Shown piece by piece: positions 3,352 through 19,463 of a DNA stretch of 38,749 nt. Origin of the DNA: a virus. A program made the position numbers and the translations under genes. Under the pieces are notes generated by a model, which was given only the letters and a program-made list of their open reading frames with translations, was not told where the DNA came from and made no database searches. Location of the stretch: the IMG/VR virus record IMGVR_UViG_3300042525_000303, positions 1-38,749 of that record. The stretch is one strand, 5' to 3'. The number at the start of each line of letters is the position of its first letter. Within the stretch, counting starts at the first letter, position 1.

Positions 3352-4551
3352 ATGAAATACCCCTGCTTGCTTACCAAAAAAATCAACGAAATTTCTTCGG
3401 CAAAATATAACCCAAGAAAAATTACAGACGAGGCGATGGGTCGATTGACCAAGAGCCTAGCGGAGTTTGGAAACATCCAGCCGATCACTTGGAATGTGCG
3501 AACTGGGAATGTTGTCGGAGGCCACCAAAGGCTCAAGGTCTATAAGGCGATGGGCAAAACCGAGGTGGATGTGTGGGCGGTCGATCTGGATGAGCAGAAG
3601 GAGAAGGCGGCCAACATAGCCCTCAACAAGTTGAGTGGAGAGTTCGATATGCCGATGCTCAAAGATATCCTAGAGGAAATCGATACTGGCGATCTGGATA
3701 TGGAAATTACCGGGTTCGGGATGGATGAGATTGCGTTGATGATGGAGGACGCACACCCAGAAGTAACCGAGGACGAAGTGCCAGAAGTTCCAGTCGATGC
3801 TATCACGAAGCCGGGTGACTTGTGGCTACTTGGTGAACACCGAGTTCTTTGTGGGGACTCAACAAGCGAGGCAGATGTATCTAGGCTTATGAATGGCGAG
3901 AAAGCGGATATGGTTTTCACCGATCCTCCTTATGGCGTTAATTATGATGGAGGACACGCAACAGATAAGCGTAGGGAAAAACTTAAAAACGATAACTCTA
4001 CGCTAATCTATGATGACTCTGTTCCAAATATGTTTAGGCATTCGAAAGATGAGGCCGCACTATACTTATGGTTTGCCGCAACCAAGTCGCTCCAAGTCCT
4101 CCAAGTCCTCCAAGTCCTCCAAGTCCTCCAATCAAATAATTATGTGATTCGCAGTTGGCTCATCTGGAATAAAAATCAAGCTCAATTCGGAGCTATTGGG
4201 GCACAATATAAACAGAAGCACGAACCCTGCTTATATTGTTTCAAAAAAGGACAAAGCCCATATTGGAACGGCCCGAACAATGAGGTTTCTGTTTGGGACG
4301 AAAAGCGTTCAAGAATAAACGAGTTTCACCCGACACAAAAGCCAGTAGAGCTATCTGCAAGGGCATTAACAAATTCTTGCCCAGCAAGCGGGCTAGTTCT
4401 CGATCTATTTTTGGGTTCTGGTGCAACTCTTATTGGTGCAGAACAAACCAAACGCAAATGTTATGGAATGGAAATCAGCCCCAACTACTGCGATGTGATT
4501 GTGAAGCGATGGGAAAACCTTACTGGCAAAAAAGCCACGCTTGCCAAATGA
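3352..4551 (+). CDS. ParB-like domain fused to a DNA N4-cytosine/N6-adenine methyltransferase
   Basis: This is a 399-residue two-domain protein. Residues about 10-95 form a ParB/sulfiredoxin-like domain (NPRKI at 20-24, GGHQRLK at 56-62). Residues about 155-395 form a beta-class exocyclic-amine DNA methyltransferase. Its catalytic motif DPPY is at 191-194, before the SAM-binding FLGSG at 353-357. Fusions of this kind are common phage orphan methyltransferases; they modify phage DNA to escape restriction or to time packaging and replication. Between the two methyltransferase motifs lies a 9-bp tandem repeat encoding LQV repeats (residues 247-260). The gene sits directly upstream of the terminase genes. 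Target sequence and base are unknown. Confidence 0.9.
   Translation: MKYPCLLTKKINEISSAKYNPRKITDEAMGRLTKSLAEFGNIQPITWNVRTGNVVGGHQRLKVYKAMGKTEVDVWAVDLDEQKEKAANIALNKLSGEFDMPMLKDILEEIDTGDLDMEITGFGMDEIALMMEDAHPEVTEDEVPEVPVDAITKPGDLWLLGEHRVLCGDSTSEADVSRLMNGEKADMVFTDPPYGVNYDGGHATDKRREKLKNDNSTLIYDDSVPNMFRHSKDEAALYLWFAATKSLQVLQVLQVLQVLQSNNYVIRSWLIWNKNQAQFGAIGAQYKQKHEPCLYCFKKGQSPYWNGPNNEVSVWDEKRSRINEFHPTQKPVELSARALTNSCPASGLVLDLFLGSGATLIGAEQTKRKCYGMEISPNYCDVIVKRWENLTGKKATLAK
4090..4131 (+). repeat. 9-bp tandem repeat (CTCCAAGTC, about 4.7 copies) inside the methyltransferase gene
   Basis: Four perfect copies of CTCCAAGTC and a partial fifth run without interruption. The unit length is a multiple of three, so each unit adds Leu-Gln-Val without breaking the frame. 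The array lies between the DPPY and FLGSG motifs, where target-recognition or linker sequence is expected. Confidence 0.95.
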
Positions 4552-5258: not shown

Positions 5259-5560
5259 AACGCACACCCCTTAAACGCAAAACCCCACTCAAACGAGGTG
5301 GGAAATTACGCCGAGTATCTGCAAAGAGAAAAGGCCAGAATGAAGTGTATAAAGATGTGCGAGAGAAGTTTCTAACAAACAATCCAGTCTGCCAAGTCTG
5401 CAAGTGCAAGATGGCGAGCCAAGTTCACCATAGGCGAGGAAGGTTCGGGGATAGGCTAAACGAGGTAGAGTTTTTCTTGGCGGTGTGTTTCGAGTGCCAT
5501 CATCAAATCCATATGAACCCCGCTTGGGCGTATGCGAAAGATTATTTGGTTAAGAGATGA
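5255..5560 (+). CDS. HNH endonuclease
   Basis: This 101-residue protein has the HNH/zinc finger pattern: C46-x-x-C49, a His-His pair at 58-59, C78-x-x-C81 and H82-H83 with H86 downstream. The N-terminus (PLKRKTPLKRGG) is highly basic, as is typical of phage HNH proteins. HNH enzymes encoded next to terminase genes are known to be needed for DNA packaging cleavage in several phages, including HK97. Here it sits between TerS and TerL with four-base overlaps on both sides, so a role in genome maturation with TerL is likely. Confidence 0.85.
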   Translation: MKRTPLKRKTPLKRGGKLRRVSAKRKGQNEVYKDVREKFLTNNPVCQVCKCKMASQVHHRRGRFGDRLNEVEFFLAVCFECHHQIHMNPAWAYAKDYLVKR

Positions 5561-7347
5561 ACCAGATTGATGAGGCCAAGAACTTCGCTCGTCTTTTGTT
5601 TGAGCCAAGGGAACAACTCTCAATCCCAGAATGGGCAGAGAAAAATCTAACCCTTTCAGCTAGGGTAACGAACATACCCGGAGCGTACTCGACAACGCTC
5701 ACGCCCTATGTCCGTGAACCGCTAGAGGCTTTTGGCGATGACTCGATTCGTAGGGTGGTGTTGGTATGGGGGGCACAAACAAGCAAAACCACAACGATTC
5801 TAGCTGGCCTAGCGTATCGAATCGCAGAGCGACCTTGCCCTGCCTTGTGGGTTATGCCCAGCGAGCATTTGGCTAGATCATTCACAGAAACTAGATGGTT
5901 GCCGATGATTGACGATTGCCCAGCCCTAGCCAAAGAGAAGCCAGACAACACCGACAAAATCAAAATCCTAGAGCAACACTTCAAGCGATGCTCGGTATGG
6001 TGGGCTGGCACTAGCCCCTCGGCTCTTTCTAGTCGCTCGATTGCCTTGTTGTGTATGGATGAGGTGGACAAGTTTCCAGAGCAAGCGGGGTCGGGGCGAG
6101 AGGCGAACCCAGTTCAACTTGCGGAGGCACGAGTCAGCACCTACCCAAACCATCTCATCATAGCAACCAGCACCCCCACAACTGCTGACTCAATCATTTG
6201 GAGTGAATGGCAGAAGGGCGATATGCGTTTCTACTTTGTGCCTTGTCCTCATTGTGGGCACAAGCAGAAGCTGGTTTGGGGGCAAGTAAAGTGGGACGAG
6301 TCGGCAAAGATTGAAGATGGGGTTTATGATTTTAAGCTGGTAAAATCCTCGACCTACTACGAGTGCGAGGGGTGCAAAGAAAAGATTACAGACGGACAGA
6401 AAACCAAGATGCTTCGAGAGGGCGAGTGGAGGGCAACCAACCTAAAGGGCGAACCAGCCAGACGCTCCTATCATCTTAATGGCCTATATGCCCCTTGGGT
6501 TAGCTTTGGAAGTCTGGCGGTGAAGTTCCTACAAGATAAGCACAATGGAATCATCGGCCTACAAGACTTCGTGAACCGAGTTCTAGCCGAGCCTTGGATG
6601 GAACACGAATCAGAGAAGATGGAGATAGTGGCGGGTGATTACAAGATGGGCGAGGTCAGAGTGAATGAGAAACTGATTATGGCTTGCGATATTCAAGAGG
6701 CGGGCGGTTTCCACGCTTGGTGCGTTGTTAGGGCTTGGGATATTGAGGGCAGATCGAGGCTTGTGTGGGCTGGTAGGCTAGAGACTTGGGGAGACATCCA
6801 AGCCAAGGCAGAGGAGTTTGGGGTGGAATCGAAATGCGTTTTCTGCGATTCGGGCGATCAAACCAGAGATGTTTATTATAATTGTTGTAAGAATGGATGG
6901 ATGGCGTTGGTCGGTTCAGACCGCACTAGCTTCTCTGAAATTGTAGGGGAGCAAAAACTACAACGCCCATACGCTCGAATTGCCAATGGCGACCCTTTCA
7001 GCGGTAAGGCAGTTCAATCGAAGGCAGGGTGGAAGTGGAAGTTCTGCCCAGTCTGGCGTTGGTCAAACCCATCCATCAAAGACATCCTCTCCAATCTAAT
7101 TAAAGAACCCGGCTACATCGCACTAGATACCCCCGATGTTTGGCGAGTGCATATCGAGGCAGAGGTGAAGGTGAGAGTGAAGAATCCTATGACTGGAAGG
7201 GAAAGGCTTGTGTGGAAGCAAGTCGGAAAGCATAATCACTTAATGGATTGCGAGTGTATGAACATCGTTGGTGCGGCCTTGTATGGACGCTTGAAAGTCT
7301 CTCCCGCAAGTTTGACAGAAAGTGAGTTTGATAATGGCGAAGGGTGA
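5557..7347 (+). CDS. terL: Terminase large subunit (lambda GpA-like)
   Basis: This is the 596-residue motor that pumps DNA into the prohead and cuts it. The N-terminal ATPase has a Walker A-like WGAQTSKTT (residues 71-79, K77) and Walker B LLCMDE (D168/E169). A zinc-finger-like CPHCGHK with a later CEGC lies between the ATPase and nuclease parts. The C-terminal RNase H-like nuclease shows D378 in MACDIQ and D431 in FCDSGDQT. The length and zinc site fit the lambda GpA family rather than the T4 or P22 types. It follows TerS and HNH, and its 3' end overlaps the connector gene. Confidence 0.95.
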   Translation: MNQIDEAKNFARLLFEPREQLSIPEWAEKNLTLSARVTNIPGAYSTTLTPYVREPLEAFGDDSIRRVVLVWGAQTSKTTTILAGLAYRIAERPCPALWVMPSEHLARSFTETRWLPMIDDCPALAKEKPDNTDKIKILEQHFKRCSVWWAGTSPSALSSRSIALLCMDEVDKFPEQAGSGREANPVQLAEARVSTYPNHLIIATSTPTTADSIIWSEWQKGDMRFYFVPCPHCGHKQKLVWGQVKWDESAKIEDGVYDFKLVKSSTYYECEGCKEKITDGQKTKMLREGEWRATNLKGEPARRSYHLNGLYAPWVSFGSLAVKFLQDKHNGIIGLQDFVNRVLAEPWMEHESEKMEIVAGDYKMGEVRVNEKLIMACDIQEAGGFHAWCVVRAWDIEGRSRLVWAGRLETWGDIQAKAEEFGVESKCVFCDSGDQTRDVYYNCCKNGWMALVGSDRTSFSEIVGEQKLQRPYARIANGDPFSGKAVQSKAGWKWKFCPVWRWSNPSIKDILSNLIKEPGYIALDTPDVWRVHIEAEVKVRVKNPMTGRERLVWKQVGKHNHLMDCECMNIVGAALYGRLKVSPASLTESEFDNGEG

Positions 7348-7567
7348 TTTCATTGGCCTACCCCTTGCCACCCTAACTTCTCTTCGTGATAAGTATGTTA
7401 CTTGTCTTGAGGCGATAGCGGTGGCGGGTTCAAGCTATTCGATAGCTGGTCGTTCGTTCTCAAGGGCGAATCTCGGTGAGGTAAGAGATACGATTGCGGA
7501 ATTGACCCTAGCCATTCAGTCTGTTAATGGTACTCGTATCCGCACAACTTACACAAAGTTCTCGTGA
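7334..7567 (+). CDS. gpW-like head-tail connector protein
   Basis: From the ATG at 7334 this is a 77-residue helical protein with TLTSLRDKYVTCLEAIAVAG and a central SIAGRSFSRANLGEVRDTI. The second motif is the beta-hairpin/helix signature of gpW/head-joining proteins: a G-R-S/T-F/V-T/S phrase, then L-x-E-V/L-x-x-x-I. Lambda gpW is 68 residues and lies between terminase and portal, as here. It would plug the portal after packaging. An in-frame ATG four codons earlier is possible. The stop overlaps the portal GTG (GTGA). Confidence 0.75.
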   Translation: MAKGDFIGLPLATLTSLRDKYVTCLEAIAVAGSSYSIAGRSFSRANLGEVRDTIAELTLAIQSVNGTRIRTTYTKFS

Positions 7568-10500
7568 AAAAAGCCCAACTCAATTTAATAGATAAAGCCG
7601 TTGCTTTTCTGAACCCGCAAGGGGCAGTTAATCGGATGATTGCACGGCAGAAGCTCGTCAACTTCTCCTACGATGCCGTCAAATATACAAGGGAACGAAA
7701 GGGGCCGAGTTCGCTTTCTGGTGCGGAAGATTACCGAAGCAACTATGACCGAGTAGAGTTGATGAAAAGGGCGAGGGACTTGGCAGAGAATGTTGGCCTT
7801 GTTCGCTCCATCCTAATGAAGTTCGCCAGCCATACCGCCGCCAACATTTCCTACCAAGCCCGAACCGAGAACCCCGAAGTCAATACAGAGGTCGAGGCGT
7901 ATTGGGCAGAGTGGTGGGACAAGTGCGATCTAACCACAAGGCATACTGGTTCAACACTTATGCAAGTGGCGATGATGAGTATGTTGCGGGATGGTGACTT
8001 CCTTTTCGTTTTGGTTCGAGATAAGGACGGAAATCTAAAGATTCAAGGCATTGAGGCAGATAGATTGGGAGACCCATTCAAGGTTTATACAAGCCTAGAT
8101 TTGATCGGTGGAATCCATATTGATCGGGATACTGGTGCCCCAAGTGCCTACGATATTTATAATCGAAGCATCGGGGATTTCTACACCTACCAGACAACTA
8201 TCCCCTCAAGCCAAGCGTTCCACTTGTTCGACCCGCTCCGCATCGACCAGTACCGAGGAATCTCTGCTTTCCATACAGCCATCAATGATTGCACAGACAT
8301 CTACGACATTATCAACTTTGAGAAGATGGCCGCAAAGAACGCAAGCTCACAGGCTGGCATCGTGAAGAGGAATAACAACAATGCCTCAGATCTCTCCTCG
8401 CTGACAAACGATGAAGATCTCAATGGCAACACGATTAAGCTAGAGGCGATTGAGTCTGGCAAAATCTCCTACCTAGAACCCGGTGAGGACATCGTGTTTC
8501 CAGATGGGCCGAGCCGACCAAGCGGAGCATTTGCAGAGTTCCACAAGATTCTATTGAGGAACATTTGCCTTGGCCTTGGCATCCCTTACTCCTTCGCCGT
8601 TGACCCTTCCGCTATGTCTGGCCCGACTGCTCGCCTTGAAATGCAACAAGCAGGGCGAACCTTCCGCAGATACCAGAAGCTCCTAGATGATAAAGTGCTT
8701 CGACCGATTAAGAACATCGTTATTGCTGACGGAGTAGCTAGGGGATTGATCGAGGACAATGTTGGGAGCAGAACGACTAGGGGTATTTTCAATTTTGGGG
8801 CGAATGTCTCCATAGATTTGGGCAGAGAATCCGCTTCCGCAATCTCCGAGTTCAAGACTGGCCTCCGCACCGCCGCCGACATCTACGCAGAGCGAGGCCA
8901 AGATTTTGAAAGTGCTATGCGACAAAGGGCTATTGAGGCCAAGCTAGTTAAGGATTTAGCTGGGGAATACGAAGTATCAGCCGACACAATTTCCGATATT
9001 GCTATGCAGGGCTTACAGCGAGAAACCCAAGTTCAGACAGCACAAAAGCCAGCCGACCAGCCCCAAGGACAAGAGGGCGATGTGGATATGCTCGGTACGG
9101 CTTCACTCAATGGGGCACAAGTCGCATCCCTTATCAATGTTATCAATGCCGTGGCTATGGGTGCAGTTTCCAAGGAGGGTGCAGTATCTATTATCACCGC
9201 CGCCTTCCCGACCATCAGCCCAGACCAAGCGAGGGCAATCATCGCTGGGGTCAATGTTGGAACAACCATCCCGACCACCAAAGAAGAGAAACAGCAGATT
9301 GGGAAAGACCAAGGCGGGGATGCTTCTGGAGGATCGACACCCCCAGCCCCAGAACCTACTACGCCCCCGACCGCCCCCGCTGGCACTTCTCAAAAAAAAA
9401 GTAGTTTAGAGATTCTGGAAAGCCTAGACCCCGCATCTATCAAGATGCTGATTGAGGGGATGATGGGCGGGATTGAGTTGGCAAAATACGATGGGATTGA
9501 TTTTACCCCACCACAAGGGGCTAGGGATGCCGCTAAAAGAGCCTTGGATGTGCGGGAGACAAAACCACCCAGCCAAAGAGGAATGACCCCAGTAGGCATC
9601 GCCAGAGCTAGGGATTTGATGAATGGGGTAAAACTGTCTCCTGACACATTAAGGCGAATGTTGAGCTTCCTGACTCGCCACGAGGTCGATAAGAAGGGCA
9701 CAAGCTGGGATGAGCAGGGCAAGGGCTGGCAAGCGTGGAATGGATGGGGAGGCGATGCTGGTTACGCTTGGGCAAGGAAAGTGGTTGGGCAGATGGAGGC
9801 TAGGGACAAGAAAACCGAGTTCGTTGCTGGCAGGGATTGTGGGCAAGATGAGGGTGGAACTTTCGGGCCAGACAACAAGTGTGCCGTAGGATATGGCAGA
9901 CCCCCACTCAAGGGGGGATACACCCCAACCCGACCCGGTGGGAAATTCCCCAAGGATTACAAAAGGCCAACGGAACAAGGCAAAAGGGAAAAGCAAAAAA
10001 AACAGAAAGACACAACTCCACCGCCCCCACCGCCAAAACTCCCAGAACCACCAAAGCAAAAAGAAAGATCGCCAGAAGAAAAAAGACGAGACGAAATCAC
10101 AAATACATTTAAGGATGCTGGAATTGAGGCAAACATTCCAGAGAATATAGATAGGGCAAATGATATCGAAAAGTCATTCAAAAATCTAAAAGACAAGGGA
10201 TACGACATACCACCACCAGAAAGAATCCTAACTGCTGATTTAGGGGAAAAATATGGCTCTGCATTTGCTGGTTCATTTGCAGTTGCAACAACTGGGCAAG
10301 ATGGAAAGTCGGAAATGATTTTTGATGTTCAGTACAACAAGAGTGGAGATGGATTGGCAAACCAGCTAGATGACTTGGTGGAGGATAAATACTTTTCTTC
10401 AAAAGATATATTTGTTCACGAATATGCCCATAATGCACACGGTAAGGCCATAGGAATTGAACAATGGACTTCTCACATTGAGAATGGGTTTGGTTCTGGT

Positions 10501-10668
10501 CAAATGGCAGATAAAGAAATTCTAACTGCTGGCAAGGTAAGCACCTATGCGGCAAAAGACCCACTTGAATTTGTGGCAGAGGTTTTCTCTGGACACGTAA
10601 ATGGCGAGTCCTACGATAAAGATGTTTATGAATTATATAAGAAATATAAAGGGCCGAAATTACTATGA
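7564..10668 (+). CDS. Portal protein (lambda gpB-like) fused to a C-terminal zincin-like metalloprotease domain
   Basis: This is a 1034-residue multidomain protein with a GTG start overlapping the upstream stop. Residues about 1-470 are a lambda-family portal (RSNYDRVELMKRARDLAENV, MLRDGDFLFVLV, the PTARLEMQQAGRTFRRYQ phrase). A Gln/Pro-rich linker follows. Near residues 645-745 lies a conserved phage module (SPDTLRRMLSFLTRHEVDKK, then WNGWGGDAGYAWA), then a Cys-bearing GRDCGQDEGGTFGPDNKCAVG and a Pro-rich basic stretch. Residues about 840-1034 contain H952-E-Y-A-H956 and EFVAEVF (E1006), a gluzincin-like zinc site. Portals are normally 450-550 aa, so about half of this protein is extra. The extra part may process head proteins or act on the host when injected. 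Confidence 0.88.
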   Translation: MKKAQLNLIDKAVAFLNPQGAVNRMIARQKLVNFSYDAVKYTRERKGPSSLSGAEDYRSNYDRVELMKRARDLAENVGLVRSILMKFASHTAANISYQARTENPEVNTEVEAYWAEWWDKCDLTTRHTGSTLMQVAMMSMLRDGDFLFVLVRDKDGNLKIQGIEADRLGDPFKVYTSLDLIGGIHIDRDTGAPSAYDIYNRSIGDFYTYQTTIPSSQAFHLFDPLRIDQYRGISAFHTAINDCTDIYDIINFEKMAAKNASSQAGIVKRNNNNASDLSSLTNDEDLNGNTIKLEAIESGKISYLEPGEDIVFPDGPSRPSGAFAEFHKILLRNICLGLGIPYSFAVDPSAMSGPTARLEMQQAGRTFRRYQKLLDDKVLRPIKNIVIADGVARGLIEDNVGSRTTRGIFNFGANVSIDLGRESASAISEFKTGLRTAADIYAERGQDFESAMRQRAIEAKLVKDLAGEYEVSADTISDIAMQGLQRETQVQTAQKPADQPQGQEGDVDMLGTASLNGAQVASLINVINAVAMGAVSKEGAVSIITAAFPTISPDQARAIIAGVNVGTTIPTTKEEKQQIGKDQGGDASGGSTPPAPEPTTPPTAPAGTSQKKSSLEILESLDPASIKMLIEGMMGGIELAKYDGIDFTPPQGARDAAKRALDVRETKPPSQRGMTPVGIARARDLMNGVKLSPDTLRRMLSFLTRHEVDKKGTSWDEQGKGWQAWNGWGGDAGYAWARKVVGQMEARDKKTEFVAGRDCGQDEGGTFGPDNKCAVGYGRPPLKGGYTPTRPGGKFPKDYKRPTEQGKREKQKKQKDTTPPPPPPKLPEPPKQKERSPEEKRRDEITNTFKDAGIEANIPENIDRANDIEKSFKNLKDKGYDIPPPERILTADLGEKYGSAFAGSFAVATTGQDGKSEMIFDVQYNKSGDGLANQLDDLVEDKYFSSKDIFVHEYAHNAHGKAIGIEQWTSHIENGFGSGQMADKEILTAGKVSTYAAKDPLEFVAEVFSGHVNGESYDKDVYELYKKYKGPKLL

Positions 10669-11141
10669 TGTTTGCACCTAAAGATTTCACAATAGAAAAG
10701 CATAAAGAGGCTATGTTGATCTACGGAAGGAACTTGTTGCAACCAAGCCCTAAAGAACTAGCCCGACCAGTCTCCCAAACCCCAGCCCCTCCCAAGGAAC
10801 GAATCAAAGGCTCAAAGGAGAATCCAAAAGGCACGGCATCCACTAGGAGCAAAGCTGGTGACATAGAGATTTCATCCGAGAACGAGGAGGCATTGAAGAA
10901 CAAGATTGCCGAGTTCAAAGACAAGCACCCATCAAGGAAAGCCCCTAGCCTTGGAGCATTAAAGAAAGTGTTTCGTAGGGGGGCGGGTGCATTCTCCACT
11001 AGCTTTAGGCCAACGATTTCCGGGGGAAAGCCCAACTCACGCAACGCTTGGGCGATGGCTAGGGTGAACAAGTTTCTCAAGATGGCGGGTGGGGGTGAGG
11101 TCAAGAAGTCATACCGAGCGGCAGACGGCGATCTTCTTTGA
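10665..11141 (+). CDS. Small phage protein with RRGAGAFS-type module
   Basis: This 158-residue protein has a Pro/Lys-rich N-terminal half. The C-terminal half contains LGALKKVFRRGAGAFSTSFR followed by RNAWAMARVNKFLK. I recall this pattern from many uncharacterised phage proteins encoded next to portal or protease genes, often in the same proteins as the GGDAG module seen in the portal extension. The ATG overlaps the portal stop (ATGA). It probably belongs to head assembly; no activity can be assigned. Confidence 0.6.
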   Translation: MMFAPKDFTIEKHKEAMLIYGRNLLQPSPKELARPVSQTPAPPKERIKGSKENPKGTASTRSKAGDIEISSENEEALKNKIAEFKDKHPSRKAPSLGALKKVFRRGAGAFSTSFRPTISGGKPNSRNAWAMARVNKFLKMAGGGEVKKSYRAADGDLL

Positions 11142-11158
11142 CATAACCTCGATGCTTT

Positions 11159-12232
11159 ATGCCCCTACCCATTCCCTCTGCTGACGAATCCGAGCAAGAC
11201 TTTGTTTCCCGCTTTATGGGAGACGAGCAAGCCATCAGCGACTTTCCAGACGAACAACAAAGGGCGGCGGTTGCCTATTCTACTTATCGGGACGAGGAGA
11301 TGGAGGAAATGGAGCTGGGAGGGGTGAGCATTTTGGAGGTGGGAGAGGCTAAAGGACACGACCTTTTCGTGGATAAGATCAGCCTAGAGACTGCCCTCAA
11401 ACTTATGAAGGGAGCAAGGAACGGAATTAAGGTGAAGATCAACCACGGCTCTGGTCTCGAAAGTGTCGTAGCCTTCGCCAGAAACCCCCGCATCGAAGGG
11501 GACAAGCTAGTGGCCGACCTCCGCTTGCTCCGCAACTCACCCCACTATGGCCTTATCAAAGAGATGGCATCCGAAGCCCCCGACCAGTTTGGGGTTTCAT
11601 TGGCTTTCGTGAATGAGTCCGAGACGATTAATGGCAAGGATTATATTCGCCCCCAGAGCATCGCCTCTGCTGATTTAGTTTCCAGCCCAGCCGCCACAAA
11701 CGGATTGTTTGAGGAGATGGTGAAGTTTATGGAAAAACTCGGTTATGTGCAGGGAGGCAAGACCATCCCAGCCGTAGCCAAAGAAGCCGTGGAGGAAGCT
11801 CCACTTGACAAAAAGGACAAATCAAATATGGAAAACAACGATTATAAGAAAGATATGGACGAAATTAAGGTTCGTCTCGCCGCATTGGAAGATGCGATGA
11901 AACCCAAAGAAGAAATGAAGAAAGAGGAGATGGCCGAGGAAGCTCCAAAGATCGTCATCGAAAAAGAAGACGAAGATGAAAAAGAGGAGACCAAGGAAGA
12001 GATGAGCGAAGTGGTGAAGAAAGTTCTGACCGAGTTCGGCATTAAGCCCATCCCCGCCTCCCCTTCAATCGAAGTTCCTTCCGAGAAAAAGGAAGAACCC
12101 AAAACTTTTGAAGCTCTCGTGGCCGCCCATAGCGACTACGGAACAAGCAAGCTCAAGGCGATGAAAGCCGTGATGCTCTCTAACCCAACCGAATACTCCG
12201 AGGCTCTGTCTCGTGGTATTACCAAACTATAA
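11159..12232 (+). CDS. Prohead protease fused to scaffold domain
   Basis: This is a 357-residue protein. After a short N-terminal phage module (MPLPIPSADESEQDFVSRFM), residues 55-200 look like the herpesvirus-type/HK97 prohead protease fold, with H96 in VKINHG and S147 in FGVSLAF. The 51-residue spacing is close to that of the catalytic His and Ser in HK97 gp4. From about residue 224 the sequence becomes very acidic and Lys/Glu rich with a coiled-coil pattern, typical of a scaffold. The protease would remove the scaffold from the capsid interior after assembly. It lies directly before the decoration and capsid genes. Confidence 0.8.
   Translation: MPLPIPSADESEQDFVSRFMGDEQAISDFPDEQQRAAVAYSTYRDEEMEEMELGGVSILEVGEAKGHDLFVDKISLETALKLMKGARNGIKVKINHGSGLESVVAFARNPRIEGDKLVADLRLLRNSPHYGLIKEMASEAPDQFGVSLAFVNESETINGKDYIRPQSIASADLVSSPAATNGLFEEMVKFMEKLGYVQGGKTIPAVAKEAVEEAPLDKKDKSNMENNDYKKDMDEIKVRLAALEDAMKPKEEMKKEEMAEEAPKIVIEKEDEDEKEETKEEMSEVVKKVLTEFGIKPIPASPSIEVPSEKKEEPKTFEALVAAHSDYGTSKLKAMKAVMLSNPTEYSEALSRGITKL
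11828..12232 (+). CDS. Candidate internal start producing free scaffold protein (in frame)
   Basis: An in-frame ATG at codon 224 of the protease gene (MENNDYKKDMDEIK) marks the exact border between the protease domain and the acidic coiled-coil tail. AAGGAC at 11813-11818 lies nine bases upstream, a reasonable ribosome site. Lambda makes its scaffold Nu3 from an internal start inside the protease gene C, so the arrangement has a precedent. The product would be 134 residues. This is an inference from position and leader. Confidence 0.5.
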   Translation: MENNDYKKDMDEIKVRLAALEDAMKPKEEMKKEEMAEEAPKIVIEKEDEDEKEETKEEMSEVVKKVLTEFGIKPIPASPSIEVPSEKKEEPKTFEALVAAHSDYGTSKLKAMKAVMLSNPTEYSEALSRGITKL

Positions 12233-12250: not shown

Positions 12251-12610
12251 ATGGCAACAAATATTGACGGTGGTGCAATTCGCACCTTTAACTTCGCTTC
12301 GGCGATTTCGGCTTACCGATTCGTTCAAATCGGAACAGATGGATTGGCAGTAGCGGCAGTCTCCGGCACGGCTCGTGCAGTTGGCTCTACTATTTCCGAT
12401 GTAGCGGCTGGTGACAACGGTGCAGTCAAGCTGTTCTACCCAACCTTTTTTGCAACTTGTGATGTGGCGATTGCCGCTGGTGGCCTTGTGGCTACTAGCA
12501 CGGCTGGCCTCGTGACAACTGCGGCGGCCAATGTTGGCATCGTCGGAGTTGCTCTCGAAGGCGGTGCGGCTGATGCAGTAATCGAAGTCGCAGTTCCCTT
12601 AACCCAGTAA
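12251..12610 (+). CDS. Capsid decoration protein (DUF2190-like)
   Basis: This is a 119-residue, Ala/Gly/Val-rich protein. The phrases YRFVQIGTDGLAVAAV, GTARAVGSTISDVAAGDNGA and VGIVGVALEGG match DUF2190-type proteins, which are capsid-stabilising decoration proteins with a small beta-barrel fold. It sits between protease/scaffold and major capsid, the same position as lambda gpD. A leader AACCAAAGGATAATACTAAA precedes the ATG. It would bind the expanded head as trimers or spikes. Confidence 0.75.
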   Translation: MATNIDGGAIRTFNFASAISAYRFVQIGTDGLAVAAVSGTARAVGSTISDVAAGDNGAVKLFYPTFFATCDVAIAAGGLVATSTAGLVTTAAANVGIVGVALEGGAADAVIEVAVPLTQ

Positions 12611-12639: not shown

Positions 12640-13611
12640 ATGGCATACGTAAGTGGTGGTACAACGATTCGAGCAGACATCAACCAAGCGTTGATCGAAG
12701 CTCCTCAAGCCGATGTCGGTTTGATCGGTTCGCAACTTCTCCCTTTGCAGAATGTTGATGCAAAGAGCGGAACATACCTAAAGGTTCAACTCGGCGGTGC
12801 AGAGTTGCTGACCAACAATGCGGCGGCTCGTGATTCTGGTTCGGGATACAACCGAGGGATTCGCTCCTTCAGTTCTGCGAACTACAGCACGGACGAATTT
12901 GGACTTGAGGAGATCGTGCCGGACGATACCGCTAAAGACCTAAACAGGTTTTTTTCGTACGAGGCAGAAACTGCCAAGTTCTTGCTCCGTCAGTTGAAAC
13001 TCTCCCACGAGAAGCGGGTTTCCGATCTTCTCTGGGCTGGTTCGACTCCCTTCACCATCGCTGACCAGACTCGTGCAGTAGCCTACACGAACACGAACAT
13101 CGCCACGGTTGATGTGGCTCGTGACGTAGCGGCCGCCAAACTCGCTCTTAACCAGTATGGTTATGAAGTGAATTGTATTGCGATGTCTGCCAATGTGTTT
13201 GAGTTGATCAGACGCTCCACCCTCCTACAAAATCAGTTCTTCGGAGTTATCTCCAATACTGGTGCAAGGTTGTTGAGCGAAGCTGAAATTGCGGCGGCTC
13301 TCGGAGTTCAAAACCTCCTCGTTGGTCGTGCGGCGATCAACTCTGCTGGCAAGAACAAAGCCTACTCTGGTTCGTTCGTTGTTCCAGATACCAAGATCAT
13401 CGTAGGTCAGATTGCTGGTGGTGAGTTCACCGCTGGTGGAATCGGACGCACCTTGGTCTGGTCGGGTGACTCGGCTGGTGGTTTCGTTAGCGAAAGCTAT
13501 CGTGACGAAGCTCGCCGTAGCCAAGTGTTGCGGGTTCGTATGAACACGGACGAAGTTGTGATTGACCCGAACGCCGCCGTTCGTATCACCACCAACTACT
13601 CCGCTAGCTAA
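12640..13611 (+). CDS. Major capsid protein
   Basis: This 323-residue protein lies after the protease and decoration genes and before a strong terminator, the standard position for the capsid gene. Features typical of HK97-fold capsids include an N-terminal ADINQALIEAPQADVGLIGS, a long helix ETAKFLLRQLKLSHEKRVSD (the spine helix), then MSANVFELIRRS and a C-terminal VRMNTDEVVIDPNAAVRI. The codon choice looks smoother and richer in C-ending codons than in the genes after the terminator, as expected for a highly expressed protein. The leader is the A-rich CAACCAAGAAAGAA word rather than a standard ribosome site. Confidence 0.85.
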   Translation: MAYVSGGTTIRADINQALIEAPQADVGLIGSQLLPLQNVDAKSGTYLKVQLGGAELLTNNAAARDSGSGYNRGIRSFSSANYSTDEFGLEEIVPDDTAKDLNRFFSYEAETAKFLLRQLKLSHEKRVSDLLWAGSTPFTIADQTRAVAYTNTNIATVDVARDVAAAKLALNQYGYEVNCIAMSANVFELIRRSTLLQNQFFGVISNTGARLLSEAEIAAALGVQNLLVGRAAINSAGKNKAYSGSFVVPDTKIIVGQIAGGEFTAGGIGRTLVWSGDSAGGFVSESYRDEARRSQVLRVRMNTDEVVIDPNAAVRITTNYSAS

Positions 13612-13717: not shown

Positions 13718-15373
13718 ATGAAAATCCCTATTTCCCTTTACCTAATCGCTGGAAATGAAGAAGCCCACATCAAGCGAGTCATTGAATCCTTTAAGCCCAT
13801 CGCAGAAGAAGTTATTGTTTGTATGGCTAGGGGGTCAGCTACGCCAGACAAGACAGAAGAGATCGCCCTTTCGCTTGGGGCTAAAGTCATTCACTACAAG
13901 AATAAGAAAACTGATTGGCCTCACATAGACGATTTTGCTTCTGCTAGAAACACAGCCCTAGATGCTTGTAAGAACGAGTGGTCTATTTGGGTAGATGCCG
14001 ATGATGTAATGGCAGAGGGTGGGGAGAAGGTTTTGCAAGAGGGGTTGGAACAAGCTGAAAAAGTGGGGGCTGAAATTGTTTGCTTTAGGTATCTAGTTGA
14101 GAATGCCGGATTGAATCCTATTCGAGAGATGGCCTTACGCAAGGGGTGTGGTAGGTGGAGGAACAGAGTTCACGAAGCCCTTGAGCCAAACGATAGGAAC
14201 AAGTTATTAGCCATTGATAAAGTGTTTAGGATTCACCGCCCGATTACAAGCAAGGCAGATTCAGCAGATAGAAACCATCGCATCCTAGCAGACGAGCTAA
14301 CCTCTACCCCATTCAATCTTTACTATCAGCACCAAGAGTTTTTCTTGAGGGGTCAAGTGGATAAAGCGATTGAGGTGGGGGAAAGAGCCTTGGCTTTCCC
14401 AGACCTAGACGAGACTCTCAAATATGAGCTTCTATGCAACCTTGGGAGATGCTCGCCAAGCGAGAAGAGGTTTAGATATTTAGGGGAAGCGATTGGAGTC
14501 AATCCTATTCGCAGAGAGGCTTATTTTTATTTGATGGCTGAATATTCTGCAAGGGGGGATTGGGCAAAGGCTTGGCATTCTGGAAGGGCTTGTATGGCTA
14601 TGCCAAAGCCGAATCTTCATTACTGGAATCAAGTTCACGCCGTCTACGACTGGCAAGCCCTCGATGGATACCGGATGGCCTCTATCTGCTACAACCAAAA
14701 AGAGGAAGTAGCCAAGCTGGTGAATATGTATCCCAAGCCAAAGATAAGCATTGTCCACGCTACAAGAGGCCGCCCCCAGTTGGCCTTCCAGCGGAAGATG
14801 CAATGGCTGGCTTTAGCCAAAGAACCCCTAGCAGTCGAGTGGTTGTTTATGGTCGATCACGATGAGGCAGTTGATTACACCCCGCACGAAGGCAAAAGGG
14901 TTAATCCGGGTGGAATTATCAATGCTTGGAACGAGGGGGCAAAGATGGCAAAAAGCGAGGTTATTGTGCAAATGAGCGATGATTGGAGTCCACCGAGGTA
15001 TTGGGATGCCCTAATTTTGAGCAGAATCGACAACCTAGAGGCCGAAAGGGTTCTGGCGGTATCAGATGGCCTTCGAACCGATAAACTGCTTTGTATGGCT
15101 ATCCTAACGCAAAAGAGGCTACGGAAGCAGGGGGGGTATATGTTCCACCCAGACTACCAAGATAGTGATGGCATCTATTCAGACAACGAGTTCACGGATA
15201 GAGCCTACCAAGACGATTGTGTAATTGAAGCTAGGGACTTGGTATTTAGGCACGAGAACCCTATGTTTGCAGGGGGCAATCCAGACGAACAACTAAAGAA
15301 TCACAACAAACCAGAATACTACGAGAAAGGAAAAGCTATCTATGAAAAACGCAAAGCAAATAATTGGATGTAG
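13718..15373 (+). CDS. Two-domain glycosyltransferase (GT2 + TPR-like + second GT-A-like)
   Basis: This is a 551-residue protein. Residues 1-130 are a GT-A family 2 glycosyltransferase: SLYLIAGNEEAHIKRVIESF at the N-terminus and the metal/nucleotide motif VDADD at 92-96. Residues about 190-315 are helical and TPR-like. From residue 342 a second GT-A-like domain starts (KISIVHATRGRPQ), with an acidic pair in QMSDDWSPP (D421, D422) and a downstream SDGLRTDKL. Two catalytic-type domains could add two sugars or alternate activities. Donor and acceptor are unknown. It opens the cargo block after the capsid terminator and has no evident Shine-Dalgarno. Confidence 0.85.
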   Translation: MKIPISLYLIAGNEEAHIKRVIESFKPIAEEVIVCMARGSATPDKTEEIALSLGAKVIHYKNKKTDWPHIDDFASARNTALDACKNEWSIWVDADDVMAEGGEKVLQEGLEQAEKVGAEIVCFRYLVENAGLNPIREMALRKGCGRWRNRVHEALEPNDRNKLLAIDKVFRIHRPITSKADSADRNHRILADELTSTPFNLYYQHQEFFLRGQVDKAIEVGERALAFPDLDETLKYELLCNLGRCSPSEKRFRYLGEAIGVNPIRREAYFYLMAEYSARGDWAKAWHSGRACMAMPKPNLHYWNQVHAVYDWQALDGYRMASICYNQKEEVAKLVNMYPKPKISIVHATRGRPQLAFQRKMQWLALAKEPLAVEWLFMVDHDEAVDYTPHEGKRVNPGGIINAWNEGAKMAKSEVIVQMSDDWSPPRYWDALILSRIDNLEAERVLAVSDGLRTDKLLCMAILTQKRLRKQGGYMFHPDYQDSDGIYSDNEFTDRAYQDDCVIEARDLVFRHENPMFAGGNPDEQLKNHNKPEYYEKGKAIYEKRKANNWM

Positions 15374-15596
15374 GAAATCAAAAAAGGGGGAGGACACGAA
15401 GGGGCTTGGCACAATTACTTTTGGCAAGTCTCGTCTCGACAAAACAAAGTATGTGCTAGTCGATATTACCTATGATGAGAAGGCGGGGAAGGAATTGTAT
15501 GAGGCTGGGATGATTGCCTTGAAGCACGACCCAGAATCCGTGATTGAGTACGCAATCAAAAAAGCATTAGCTGGGATGGCGAAATGCAAGAAGTAA
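15342..15596 (+). CDS. Hypothetical protein within the cargo block, 84 aa
   Basis: The ATG at 15342 lies inside the end of the glycosyltransferase gene in another frame and is preceded by AAAGGA about eight bases upstream, which supports it. The protein has a short basic N-terminus with one Cys, a beta-rich middle (GTITFGKSRLDKTKYVLVDI) and a helical Lys-rich C-terminus. No family is recognised. Its overlap with genes on both sides indicates co-translation with the sugar/methyl block. Confidence 0.55.
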   Translation: MKNAKQIIGCRKSKKGEDTKGLGTITFGKSRLDKTKYVLVDITYDEKAGKELYEAGMIALKHDPESVIEYAIKKALAGMAKCKK

Positions 15597-16192
15597 CCAT
15601 TCACGATTCATTTGGAAAAGCCCTTGCAAAATATAGTGAGGGGCTGGATGTTGGCCTAGAGATCGGGGGAGGAACCGGGGATGGCTCAACTCAATGTATT
15701 AGGACAAAAAGGCTATTCAGCATAGAGAACCACCCAGACCGCACCGGAAGGCACTCAATGAATCTATCTGCAAGGGGGGGCGTTGCCATCAACGGCACGG
15801 CAACCCTATCAAAGCTATGGATGAACAAAAACGATATCGAGGAGTTTTACCGAACCACCAAAACAAACCTCAACCAATACCCCCTCGAAACAATTTTAGG
15901 CTGGCACAATGTCTGCCTAGAGACTGCCTTCCCTTGTTCAACCAACGCCATTGAGGACATTCACTTTGAGCATAAGGTAGATTTCAACTTTGTGCTGATT
16001 GATGGCTCGCCCTTTTCTGGTGAGGCCGAACTTCGTTGCGTCCGTCCATTCCTAGCGGAGAAAGCAATCATCGCCCTAGACGATGTGAACGACATCAAGA
16101 ACTTGGCAAACTACAACAAGCTCAAGGGATTTGCGGAACTGCTCTGGGAGGATTGGTCGGTGCGAAATGGTGCGGCCATCTTTCAGTTATGA
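15584..16192 (+). CDS. Class I SAM-dependent methyltransferase-like protein
   Basis: This 202-residue protein contains LEIGGGTGDGSTQCI, the Gly-rich SAM-binding motif I, then FSIENHPDR (motif II, acidic end of strand 2). Later, FVLIDGSPFSGEAELR and AIIALDDV are the motif IV-like and following strand regions. This fits a Rossmann-fold methyltransferase of the kind found in sugar or O-antigen gene clusters. The 3' end overlaps the next methyltransferase by ATGA. The substrate is unknown; context suggests a sugar or glycan. Confidence 0.65.
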   Translation: MQEVTIHDSFGKALAKYSEGLDVGLEIGGGTGDGSTQCIRTKRLFSIENHPDRTGRHSMNLSARGGVAINGTATLSKLWMNKNDIEEFYRTTKTNLNQYPLETILGWHNVCLETAFPCSTNAIEDIHFEHKVDFNFVLIDGSPFSGEAELRCVRPFLAEKAIIALDDVNDIKNLANYNKLKGFAELLWEDWSVRNGAAIFQL

Positions 16193-16758
16193 CGATCGTT
16201 CAAATCGGATGCAACAATGGGAAAGATCACATCCTAGATTTTTGCCAAAAGAATAGGGACGGCATCAAGGCGATACATCTTGTAGAGCCAAACCCGGAGG
16301 CACTTGAGGACTGTAAGCAGACCTATTCAGATTTCAAGCAAGCCAGATTCCACAACTTTGCGATTGTACCAAATGATGCTGGCTATGTTGATTTGCACAT
16401 TCCAAGCTCAAAAGCACTCAACGCTCACGCTTCAACATTAAAAAATCACTTAATAGACCACGGCCATATAAGTTTTGATACAATCAATGTGCCATCCATA
16501 AGTCTTGCTGGTTTCCTTGATTCAAATAAAATTGAGGAGTGCGACAGACTTTATGTCGACACGGAGGGCTTGGATTGTGAGATCATACTTAATTTTGATA
16601 TTGCAAAACACAATATAAGAAGAATCGAATTTGAGACTCTGCATTCTGATGGATTTCTAGCAAAGGGACAAAACTATAACTCTTGCATTGAGAAACTAAA
16701 AGCCCTTGGCTACAAGGCAACAGAGGCTGGCGAATACAACGAGGCATACGAACTATGA
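16189..16758 (+). CDS. FkbM-family methyltransferase
   Basis: I chose the ATG at 16189 because it overlaps the preceding stop (ATGA) and begins right at the fold; earlier in-frame Met codons lie inside the upstream gene. The 189-residue product begins TIVQIGCNNGKDHILDFCQ (SAM motif I), continues with HLVEPNPEALEDC (motif II) and has LYVDTEGLDCEIILNF, the D-x-E-G signature of FkbM enzymes. FkbM proteins O-methylate sugars or polyketides. Next to glycosyltransferases, the likely substrate is a glycan hydroxyl group. Confidence 0.8.
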   Translation: MTIVQIGCNNGKDHILDFCQKNRDGIKAIHLVEPNPEALEDCKQTYSDFKQARFHNFAIVPNDAGYVDLHIPSSKALNAHASTLKNHLIDHGHISFDTINVPSISLAGFLDSNKIEECDRLYVDTEGLDCEIILNFDIAKHNIRRIEFETLHSDGFLAKGQNYNSCIEKLKALGYKATEAGEYNEAYEL

Positions 16759-17294
16759 ACCATATTACAGCAGACTTTGAAGAGGATTGGTTTAACTCTC
16801 CTAATGTCTATAAAATGCTTGTGGAGAATTGCAGGGACGATGGGAAGATTGTCGAGCTTGGGGCGTGGAAGGGCAGAAGCTCGGCATTCCTTGTGGTTGA
16901 GGCATATAATAAAAGCCCGAAGATTGAGATTCATATTGTTGATACTTGGGGCGGGAATCCCCTTGATGGCTCGCAAGACAAATCGACTGACCCATATAAT
17001 AAATTTATTTCTAATATGTCTCTCCTTTGCAGACCTTACCAAGCCCACAGAATGACAACAAACGAGGCGGCAGGGCTTTTTGAGGACGAGTCTTTAGACG
17101 CAGTTTTTATAGATGCAGACCATTCCTATGAGGCCGTAAAGTTAGACATTCAAAATTGGATGCCGAAAGTGCGTAAGGGCGGGATATTGGCTGGGCACGA
17201 TTATACTTCTGCTTGGCCGGGAGTCATAAGGGCAGTTGATGAGATATTCCCAGAGGCTCAAAAAATAGACTATTGCTGGCTAAAACAATGCTAA
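16755..17294 (+). CDS. Class I methyltransferase (Methyltransf_24-like)
   Basis: This 179-residue protein has KIVELGAWKGRSSAFLV (SAM motif I), IEIHIVDTWGG (motif II), DAVFIDADHSYEAVKLDI (motif IV plus the D-x-D-H-x-Y phrase) and GGILAGHDYT (motif VI region). These are hallmarks of the Methyltransf_24 family, which often methylates sugars or catechol-like groups and sits in polysaccharide gene clusters. It overlaps its neighbours by four and seven bases, so it is translated together with the FkbM enzyme and the next glycosyltransferase. Confidence 0.85.
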   Translation: MNHITADFEEDWFNSPNVYKMLVENCRDDGKIVELGAWKGRSSAFLVVEAYNKSPKIEIHIVDTWGGNPLDGSQDKSTDPYNKFISNMSLLCRPYQAHRMTTNEAAGLFEDESLDAVFIDADHSYEAVKLDIQNWMPKVRKGGILAGHDYTSAWPGVIRAVDEIFPEAQKIDYCWLKQC

Positions 17295-18055
17295 CCATCT
17301 TTACCATCGTCCTCAACGGAATGCCCTTTATCGAGAGGCATCTTGCAGAGTTTCAAAAGCTCAAGATTCCTTGGAGGTGGAGAATTGTAGAAGGGGTTAG
17401 TGAGCCAGTTGGATGCACCCGATGGTGCAAGCAAGTTCCCGACAAATGGCACAAGGATTTCAAGAGCATAGACGGAACGCACGAATATCTGAATAGCATC
17501 CAAGGTGGGAATGTGGTTGTTCATTCTCAAGGCAAACCATTTAACGGAAAGCTAGAAATGATTCAGCAAGCCTTGTTTGGTGTAGATGATGGGGTTGTGA
17601 TGGAGGTGGACGCTGACGAGATGTGGAGAGCAGAACAGATTGAGGGGATTTACGAATGCCTCAAAGGGGCAGAGGATGGGGCAACGATGCAGTTCCATTG
17701 TAACTTCTTTGTGGGAGAAAATAAGCGAGTGGTTACAAGAGAGGGTTTAGGCTCGAACTGGTACGAATGGATGAGGGCTTGGAAGTGGGGAAAGAATGTT
17801 TGCTTCACAAGCCACGAACCGCCTCGCCTAAACATCCAGTCTCGCCTAGTTCCAAGGGGAGTGACTGAAACTTGGGGGCTAGTGTTTAATCACTATGCCT
17901 ACGCAATTCAAAAGCAAGTTGAGTTTAAGGAAGATTTCTATGGCTACAAAGGGCTAGTTGATGGGTGGAGGGAATTGCAAAAGACAATCGGCCCAGTTCG
18001 ATTAAGCGAATACTTCCCACACCTACACGATAAGAGCGTAGCCGATGACTGCTAA
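17288..18055 (+). CDS. GT-A-type glycosyltransferase
   Basis: I placed the start at the ATG at 17288, seven bases inside the previous gene, because the protein then begins with the fold's first strand (MLTIFTIVLNGMPFIERHLA). An upstream ATG adds only five residues. D108-A-D110 in VVMEVDADEMW is the nucleotide-sugar/metal motif. The C-terminal part is Trp/Tyr-rich with many aromatic residues (WYEWMRAWKWGKNV). The 255-residue length suits a single-domain family 2-like transferase. The sugar and acceptor are unknown. Confidence 0.75.
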   Translation: MLTIFTIVLNGMPFIERHLAEFQKLKIPWRWRIVEGVSEPVGCTRWCKQVPDKWHKDFKSIDGTHEYLNSIQGGNVVVHSQGKPFNGKLEMIQQALFGVDDGVVMEVDADEMWRAEQIEGIYECLKGAEDGATMQFHCNFFVGENKRVVTREGLGSNWYEWMRAWKWGKNVCFTSHEPPRLNIQSRLVPRGVTETWGLVFNHYAYAIQKQVEFKEDFYGYKGLVDGWRELQKTIGPVRLSEYFPHLHDKSVADDC

Positions 18056-18716
18056 AACAATCAAATACTCACAGAGGCTAGGAGACATCATCCGTTGCCT
18101 CCCAGCTTGCAAATATCTAGCCGACCAAGGCCACGAGGTGTTCTTTGATTGCTTGCCACAGTATCACGGCATCTTCGAGATGGTTTCCTATGTAAAGGTT
18201 GGGAACAAGGGCGATGTGATAGACCTTGAGATTTGGCCTAACAAATACCAGCAATATCGTTTTTCAAATAAGACTTGGACAGAGTTTGTGTATGCACACC
18301 CAGAGATTAACAAGGCAGACCCAAAGGATATTCTATTCGACAAGCTGGACGATGCCCCAGCCAAGGGATTACCAGAAGCCTATAATATGGTTGCCCCCTT
18401 TGGGATAAGCCAAGGGCACAAGAGAGACCCTCTACAAATCATAGTTGAGGCAAGGAAGAAGTGCGGTGGAGATAATTTCTTTGTCCTATGCCAAGGCGGT
18501 ACGGAGATTAAGGGATTACAAACTTACACAGCCCCAAGCATCCCAGAATTGGCTAGGGCAATAAGAGGGGCTAATGAGTTTTGGTCAATAGATAGCGGGC
18601 AAATGGCAATCGCCGCTGGGGTTAGGAAAGAAAGTAAGGTTGTGTATTTCCCGCAAACAGTCCAGCCATTCGATAAGGACAATATCTTTATTTGGGATAG
18701 CGTAGAGATAAATTGA
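18045..18716 (+). CDS. GT-B/heptosyltransferase-like glycosyltransferase (GT9-like), short
   Basis: This 223-residue protein starts with KYSQRLGDIIRCLPACKYLA, the loop-helix that resembles the G-D-x-x-x-x-x-P motif of family 9 transferases. It ends with FFVLCQGGTEIKG, ELARAIRGANEFWSIDSGQM and AIAAGVRKESKVVYF, the C-terminal donor-binding half with the S-G-x-M/A-x-x-A phrase. Full GT9 enzymes are about 320-350 aa, so this is a compact version. It closes the cargo block. Its stop codon lies inside the right-hand AATTGACAT repeat. Confidence 0.6.
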   Translation: MTAKTIKYSQRLGDIIRCLPACKYLADQGHEVFFDCLPQYHGIFEMVSYVKVGNKGDVIDLEIWPNKYQQYRFSNKTWTEFVYAHPEINKADPKDILFDKLDDAPAKGLPEAYNMVAPFGISQGHKRDPLQIIVEARKKCGGDNFFVLCQGGTEIKGLQTYTAPSIPELARAIRGANEFWSIDSGQMAIAAGVRKESKVVYFPQTVQPFDKDNIFIWDSVEIN

Positions 18717-18732: not shown

Positions 18733-19053
18733 ATGGCGGGGACAATCGATACCACCTATTTCTCAACCGATCTTACAAATATGATCGGCGACCTATATAC
18801 AGTTGTCACCGGGCTTGGTTCTTCTGCTGTATCTGCCTCCATTACTGACTTAACGATTGCACAAGAGCTGGATGTGGGTGGAGAGATTTTAAGGGTTACG
18901 CAAAGTATGGTTGTGCCATCATCAGCTATTTCCTCGCCAGTAACTATCGGGGCTTATATAACAGTAGGGACGGCAGAGAGGATGATTGCTGGATACCAAC
19001 AAAGTGCAGACGGCGTTAGCTACACAATCGATATAGCTGACCCAACGACCTAA
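18733..19053 (+). CDS. Hypothetical protein, possible head-tail joining protein
   Basis: This 106-residue, Ser/Thr-rich and beta-rich protein follows the cargo block and precedes the tail-terminator-like pair. That is where lambda-type phages encode the FII/Z connector proteins. The segment ELDVGGEILRVTQSMVVPSS and the following VTIGAYITVGTAERMIAGY read as alternating strands, similar in style to small beta-barrel connectors. No family match is claimed; the role rests on gene order. GGGGTGGG upstream is not a standard ribosome site. Confidence 0.45.
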   Translation: MAGTIDTTYFSTDLTNMIGDLYTVVTGLGSSAVSASITDLTIAQELDVGGEILRVTQSMVVPSSAISSPVTIGAYITVGTAERMIAGYQQSADGVSYTIDIADPTT

Positions 19054-19463
19054 TGATCTCAATCGAGCGTCAGATTGAGAATGGGCTGGCAACAGCCTTG
19101 GCTGGTATTTCTGGCGTTAATATCTACAAAAGCGATACCGAAGGCCAACGACTGCTACCCAACCTAGTAATTCAAGCCTCTATTGGGTCGGAGGAAGTTA
19201 TCCCCTATTCTGGCGTATTCCGTTGCCCTGCCACAATCACCTACGCAACTAGGGCAGACACAACGACAAGATCAACTTTCGATGCCAAGTTTCAAGAGAT
19301 TCTGCAAGTGATGTATCAAGAGCCTAATCTAGCTAGTGCTCTAACCACGGCCACGCTCAAGGTGTTTTTGGCTAATGTGACATCAGAATCGCCAGACATT
19401 AGGGCAGAGAATAGGACTTGGGCAAAAACCATGTCCATAGACATTTCCTGCACAAGCATATGA
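19053..19463 (+). CDS. Tail-terminator/tail-completion-like protein, copy 1
   Basis: This 136-residue protein is predicted alpha/beta. An N-terminal helix (IERQIENGLATALAGI) is followed by strands with LVIQASIGSEEVIPYSG and a final KTMSIDISCTS strand. Size and location (after connector, before tube) fit tail terminators such as lambda gpU or gpZ-type completion proteins. It is clearly homologous to the next gene (see findings). The start overlaps the previous stop (TAATG) and the end overlaps the next ATG. Confidence 0.6.
   Translation: MISIERQIENGLATALAGISGVNIYKSDTEGQRLLPNLVIQASIGSEEVIPYSGVFRCPATITYATRADTTTRSTFDAKFQEILQVMYQEPNLASALTTATLKVFLANVTSESPDIRAENRTWAKTMSIDISCTSI

Follow-up and report, generated by a model that had tools for sequence, protein, structure and literature searches.

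A predicted zinc protease at the end of a phage portal protein

We analysed the IMG/VR virus record IMGVR_UViG_3300042525_000303 over its full 38,749 nucleotides (nt), here called the window, with the focus on its portal gene, whose product ends in a predicted zinc protease (zincin) domain. The gene is a single unbroken open reading frame (ORF; 7564-10668, plus strand) with a GTG start, encoding 1034 amino acids (aa). The original prediction, made from the bare sequence, had called the portal about twice normal length, and it is indeed long beside the 533-residue lambda portal chain of the solved structure. Residues 58-371 match Pfam Phage_portal_2 (PF05136; 9.6e-54, 183.3 bits against a curated cutoff of 32.9), within a lambda-family portal core of residues 1-480 (7564-9003; PHROG portal, 8.4e-58). 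This core is 75-100% identical to those of relatives on the retrieved loci. Pfam and PHROG place the portal in the order terminase, gpW-position adaptor, portal and head genes. Pfam found no Phage_Mu_F domain in the portal ORF, which keeps it outside the MuF class, and a search of named bacterial genomes for the portal gave no match.

Beyond the core, the ORF is built of successive modules. A variable linker (residues ~481-640; 9004-9483), which serves as a first cargo insertion site in some relatives (for example L039, L040 and L048), leads into an RHEVDKKG...WGGDAG domain (the WGG domain; residues ~641-750; 9484-9813; phrog_2859, 3e-22) found in cargo-bearing and empty relatives alike. The cargo cassette follows at 9814-10751. 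It contains a Cys-Gly motif, CGQDEGGTFGPDNKC (residues 759-773; 9838-9882), which is a form of CGxxxGGFxxGNxC longer by one residue, then a linker whose sequence is rich in Lys and Pro (residues ~785-839; 9916-10080) and the 195-residue zincin domain (residues 840-1034; 10081-10665). The cassette closes with a 29-aa partner peptide (10665-10751, plus strand), whose start overlaps the portal stop as ATGA and which is fused here to a DUF5824-like 'RRGAGAFSTS' domain (10752-11141, plus strand; Pfam DUF5824, 1.7e-4, below cutoff). A related domain in one relative (L192) scores above the Pfam cutoff, and in relatives with an empty site the DUF5824-like domain belongs to the portal ORF. The same portal-zincin fusion occurs on contigs of several metagenomes (L003, L004, L005), which rules out an assembly artefact.

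The terminal domain is, by structure prediction, a gluzincin resembling lethal factor and the Pro-Pro endopeptidases (PPEPs). The original prediction had singled out HEYAH and a downstream EFVAEVF in the last 200 residues; the two motifs lie at residues 952-956 (nt 10417-10431) and, for EFVAE, 1002-1006 (nt 10567-10581), the second-helix glutamate falling 46 residues past the last His of HExxH. An AlphaFold model built on 14 relatives reached a mean predicted local distance difference test (pLDDT) score of 94.6 and puts HExxH and EFVAE on two helices, 110-135 and 161-173, the zincin arrangement that had been proposed. The top VIA match was the catalytic domain of lethal factor (Z 10.1 over 169 residues, 3.7 Å), followed by PPEPs (Z 7.4-8.1); Foldseek alone put a different zinc peptidase in first place (7.6e-5). 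Among viral structure models, some of the closest are of minor capsid proteins or of proteins that bear the name 'lethal factor'. Structure comparison alone gave this link: no Pfam family, ATLF included, matched the domain at E up to 10, and a profile of the domain found no match among PDB sequences.

The catalytic residues of the domain are conserved. HExxH and EFxAE are kept together in 112 of 114 ORFs matching the domain profile (74 distinct cores), so the motif pair is not a chance occurrence. In an alignment of sequences only 23-58% identical to that of the window, no variation is seen at the two histidines, the base glutamate or either glutamate of EFVAE, and ratios of nonsynonymous to synonymous substitution (dN/dS) of 0.03-0.14 in unsaturated pairs indicate purifying selection. 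The domain thus has the predicted fold and the conserved catalytic residues of an active gluzincin, activity itself being a prediction. The same zincin family is also found on MuF proteins and on one Phage_portal protein. Assemblies named Gastranaerophilales, Pseudomonas sp., Methylovulum and Pseudomonas gingeri also contain relatives of the zincin (L276, L280, L281, L285, L288).

Exchange of modules on near-identical portals

Relatives of the portal in IMG/VR differ at their ends within one portal family. Complete ORF records with this zincin on this portal number 67 among the retrieved loci, duplicates counted. Of the 89 portals left once duplicates are set aside, 44 have this zincin, four have a second type together with a coiled coil and 32 have no recognised module, the remainder having ADP-ribosyltransferase (ART)-like, EESAHQ, ParB-like or third-zincin modules. 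These classes were set by short motifs, 'none' meaning none of those motifs, so some portals counted as 'none' may hold unclassified inserts. Even portal cores at least 95% identical carry zincin Z1, zincin Z2, three ART-like types, EESAHQ, ParB-like modules or none, and where the portal region is 95-99% identical the alternative cargo lies at or close to one position.

Pairwise identities show that portal and zincin histories disagree in both directions. In one pair (L237 and L257) the zincins are 28% identical though the portals are 99.6% identical, and the window and L009 share only 46.8% of zincin positions though their portal cores are 99.6% identical. Conversely, L206 and L207 have 100% identical zincins though their portals are 86.6% identical. 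Empty sites reveal the extent of the exchanged segment. In these relatives the WGG domain joins the DUF5824-like domain directly and in one frame, and against eight of them (L038, L044, L045, L058, L060, L067, L074, L081) the window has an insert at 9814-10751 with the 3-nt sequence AAA at each end. A recognised cargo module is missing from about a third of complete relatives, and no such zincin turns up anywhere in nine empty-site records of 25-38 kb or in a short one of 10 kb. Judged from these sequence comparisons, the zincin is a mobile cassette rather than a fixed part of the portal, and in portals that are nearly identical other predicted enzymes take the corresponding place.

A Cys-rich domain (CGNCAAF...GYCEIFDFKCAAKRTCDAW), HiPIP-like by eye only, is variably present after the WGG domain and beside the DUF5824-like domain (L012, L015, L061 and others).

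A Cys-Gly motif ahead of diverse enzymes

A DNA scan for CGxxxGGFxxGNxC, run blind to portals, led to head proteins; all counts here are among the matches listed. The 91 distinct segments preceding the motif, only 63 of which reach at least 250 residues, include 57 portals of three Pfam families, 5 prohead proteases and 1 MuF protein. The segments behind it match ADPrib_exo_Tox, ART-PolyVal, PARP, Zeta_toxin, HipA_2, GNAT, ATLF and others, the motif-linked module of another locus matching Pfam ATLF at 5e-5. Although the pattern had left position 4 of the motif free, 64 of 66 distinct forms have Gly there. Fifty-nine motif ORFs have a short N-terminal part: 8 are portal-like, 8 lie directly behind a portal ORF and 17 further downstream of one, while 14 adjoin a contig edge and for 12 no portal was found upstream. 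A tblastn search of isolated phages with the motif returned none, a result probably blunted by the low-complexity filter that does not imply absence. The motif's spellings were not found in the literature searched.

The motif also stands behind prohead serine proteases of the S78 family (L133, L182, L196) or, in L104, behind the protease-like gene of the window's phage family, so head proteases may carry cargo too.

A coupled peptide behind the zincin

The zincin is closely tied to the peptide encoded behind it. The zincin stop and the start of the next ORF overlap as ATGA in 35 of 39 distinct cases. The peptide, about 29 residues long, follows the pattern M(I/M)xPKDFxxEKYxxAMxxYIxxLYG and precedes the DUF5824-like domain in the same ORF; it is free-standing in L220, L225 and L240. 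The peptide is essentially confined to loci with this zincin, which is present in 72 of 74 loci with the peptide, and the two exceptions are a locus on the same contig as a zincin locus (L153, with L213) and a truncated contig (L080). Other module types have different leaders or a separate small ORF. This order of zincin and coupled peptide resembles a toxin-immunity layout, and by that analogy the partner is best read as a putative inhibitor or immunity peptide that would quiet the enzyme in the producing cell.

Behind more distant zincins, several of them on MuF proteins (5 of 16 scanned), lies a small Cys-rich ORF that is unrelated to the peptide and bears a CxAFPxGIP signature. This family (CxxCxHF...CxAFPxGIPxxI...GDxGIRF, roughly 60-100 aa) stands directly behind the zincin ORF in L259, L260, L263, L264, L265, L266, L268, L270, L271, L274, L281 and L285, mostly with the same ATGA overlap. 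It follows zincins on MuF and other proteins, has no Pfam name and is a candidate immunity family. Portals with the second zincin type (L021, L024, L027) have a separate ORF of about 80 residues behind them (MIKIIASLLGENISITIDDG...).

A probable exchangeable effector cargo

The C-terminal zincin is probably an exchangeable effector module carried on the portal, one part of a polymorphic effector-cargo system. The anatomy of the portal, the exchange of its modules and the conservation of the zincin are the established part of this reading. That one spot holds a zincin variant, different enzymes or nothing points to swappable weapons or tools in the virus head. Beyond what the original prediction noted, the zincin belongs to a large set of exchangeable modules, and a linker motif and a coupled partner peptide accompany it. 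A broader claim, to which we give even chances, is that portals of three Pfam families carry a widespread polymorphic effector system, in which CGTGxGGFxxGNxC would mark the join for exchangeable head-internal enzymes (zincins, ADP-ribosyltransferases, zeta toxin, kinases, acetyltransferases), at least some with a coupled silencing partner.

A delivery route can be proposed for such a cargo. Portal crowns face the packaged DNA (PMC7617512), and from general knowledge of portals a C-terminal extension would therefore lie in the head. With the C-terminus toward the capsid interior, up to 12 copies would be packed by covalent fusion. Either the head protease or the zincin would cut the flexible linker, after which the released enzyme could enter the host along with the DNA. 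There it might cleave a host protein, possibly a defence component, while the coupled partner would guard the producing cell. The original prediction had guessed at either head maturation or delivery with the DNA, and we infer that delivery is the better half of that guess. No integrase was found among the window genes scanned with Pfam and PHROG, a scan covering part of the genes of a possibly incomplete record.

Some points weigh against an exchangeable, delivered effector. The ART-like calls in this portal family consist of short motifs and one sub-threshold Pfam match (0.0029). The window's own motif is longer than the scanned form by one residue, so its membership of the motif class is by resemblance and position. 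The portal is retained in the capsid, and delivery would thus require a putative cleavage. Finally, since the partner is in most cases joined to the DUF5824-like domain, it may instead serve as a leader for translation coupling.

Other roles fit parts of the same evidence. The zincin could process its own polypeptide, freeing itself and neighbouring domains from the portal fusion with no host target. Iyer et al. (PMC5512222) propose that such domains act in autoprocessing, P1 DdrB being a precedent; PPEPs rank near the top of the fold matches, and the zincin lies next to a Pro-rich linker. However, portals with ART-like modules or none have no zincin in the ORF, so cargo release here does not need one, and where present the zincin is usually the sole recognised enzyme in its ORF, leaving little else to free. 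As the whole function, self-processing seems unlikely to us; it may be one step, and self-release is compatible with an effector role. A second option, mainly from general knowledge, is that the zincin works portal-bound late in infection of the producing cell, against portal-recognising defence proteins such as Avs4 or against superinfecting phages. Fusion to the portal would put the enzyme beside any portal-binding sensor, a fast-swapped set fits an arms race, and Iyer et al. 2022 (PMC9503650) raise such an option for ARTs. Against this, the same motif also links cargo to MuF and to S78 proteases, a pattern more in keeping with head packaging than with a single portal-specific sensor, and the coupled partner suggests an enzyme kept off in the producer; we regard a producer-cell role as rather improbable.

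The two remaining alternatives would tie the domain to the particle itself. Its place in the head gene cluster, physically within the portal, might suggest a head-maturation protease, as the original prediction had offered, or a required assembly factor. We reject this role as very improbable, because the nine empty-site records of 25-38 kb, which have similar head genes, hold no such zincin; moreover, the motifs of the ORF at 11159-12232 are arranged as in a serine prohead protease (an unconfirmed call), and this ORF is kept with and without the cassette. A non-catalytic structural or DNA-contacting ornament is the least credible role of all. Other C-terminal domains (WGG, DUF5824-like, Cys-rich) have no known enzymatic function, but the zincin's catalytic residues are invariant across very diverse sequences under strong purifying selection.

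Relation to known systems

Effectors fused to head proteins are already known. Jamet et al. 2017 (PMC5576092) describe MuF polymorphic toxins of temperate phages, about 20% of them metallopeptidases, with a small ORF behind the toxin. Both systems have a head-associated carrier, variable C-terminal enzymes and a small ORF behind, and the same zincin family rides on MuF. Unlike those toxins as described there, the present carrier is the portal itself, in up to 12 copies, the system here has a shared Cys-Gly motif, and the partner is a peptide of about 29 aa, usually fused to the next domain; a temperate lifestyle is a feature of the MuF system. Iyer et al. (PMC5512222, PMC9503650) report PBECR, 2H, InPase, Nudix and ART effectors fused to portal or MuF, rank the zincin as the commonest polyvalent domain and propose packaging and injection. 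The present protein likewise fuses an effector domain to a virion structural domain, here the portal.

The original prediction's view of the fusion as unusual stands only in part: portal effectors and MuF zincins are described in these three papers (PMC5512222, PMC5576092, PMC9503650), and 67 records here, duplicates counted, have this zincin on this portal. In the accessible text of Iyer et al. (PMC5512222, PMC9503650) we found no portal-borne zincin, no swapping within a lineage of nearly identical portals, no such motif spanning three portal families and no coupled partner. On that partial view, three things appear to be new: exchange within a lineage whose portals are nearly identical, a motif shared among portal families and a peptide coupled to the zincin. 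An earlier record of a portal-zincin fusion may exist elsewhere in the literature.

Three other proteins frame the comparison. Anthrax lethal factor and the PPEPs share the gluzincin fold, with HExxH and the second-helix glutamate; the window domain differs in its 11-16% identity to them, its lack of a Pfam ATLF match and its putative phage-bacterium setting. Phage T4 packs the ADP-ribosyltransferase Alt in its head and injects it with the DNA. Alt is a model for the inferred route, although it is a separate protein whereas the zincin is fused to the portal. Lambda gpB belongs to the same portal family and the same order of terminase, gpW, portal and head genes, but is about half as long as the window portal and carries no cargo.

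What began as one odd fusion becomes a visibly swapping enzyme set on a highly conserved virion part. The motif offers a sequence handle on unknown phage effectors in metagenomes, many of which match no Pfam family, and pairs with empty sites permit a direct test of the cargo's role in infection. Proteases of the lethal-factor fold may have a natural inhibitor in the coupled peptide.

Neighbouring genes

The genes flanking the portal, all on the plus strand, form a packaging and head cluster. Upstream lie the terminase large subunit (5557-7347; Pfam GpA_ATPase, 4.4e-64) and the head-tail adaptor in gpW position (7322-7567; phrog_118, 2.1e-8). Downstream, 11159-12232 encodes a putative prohead serine protease and scaffold, named from its motif (NHGSG...GVSLAF) only. 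Pfam, hhalign against S78 proteases (probability 0.1) and a PDB profile search gave this assignment no support, and an AlphaFold model (pLDDT 51.9) did not confirm a protease, which leaves a serine prohead protease as a guess from sequence. It is followed by a small head protein (12251-12610; PHROG 'head scaffolding') and the major head protein (12640-13611; phrog_1005, 1.7e-26).

Further features lie elsewhere in the window. Between the head and tail genes, at 13718-18716, are a glycosyltransferase gene (13718-15373; Pfam) and several further genes that look methyl- or sugar-transferase-like by eye. Adjoining ORFs at 19053-19463 and 19418-19948 are apparent duplicates of one tail-completion-type gene. 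At 4082-4131, within a ParB-methyltransferase gene, a 9-bp unit is repeated 5.4 times (LQVLQVLQVLQ), and a change in copy number would preserve the reading frame.
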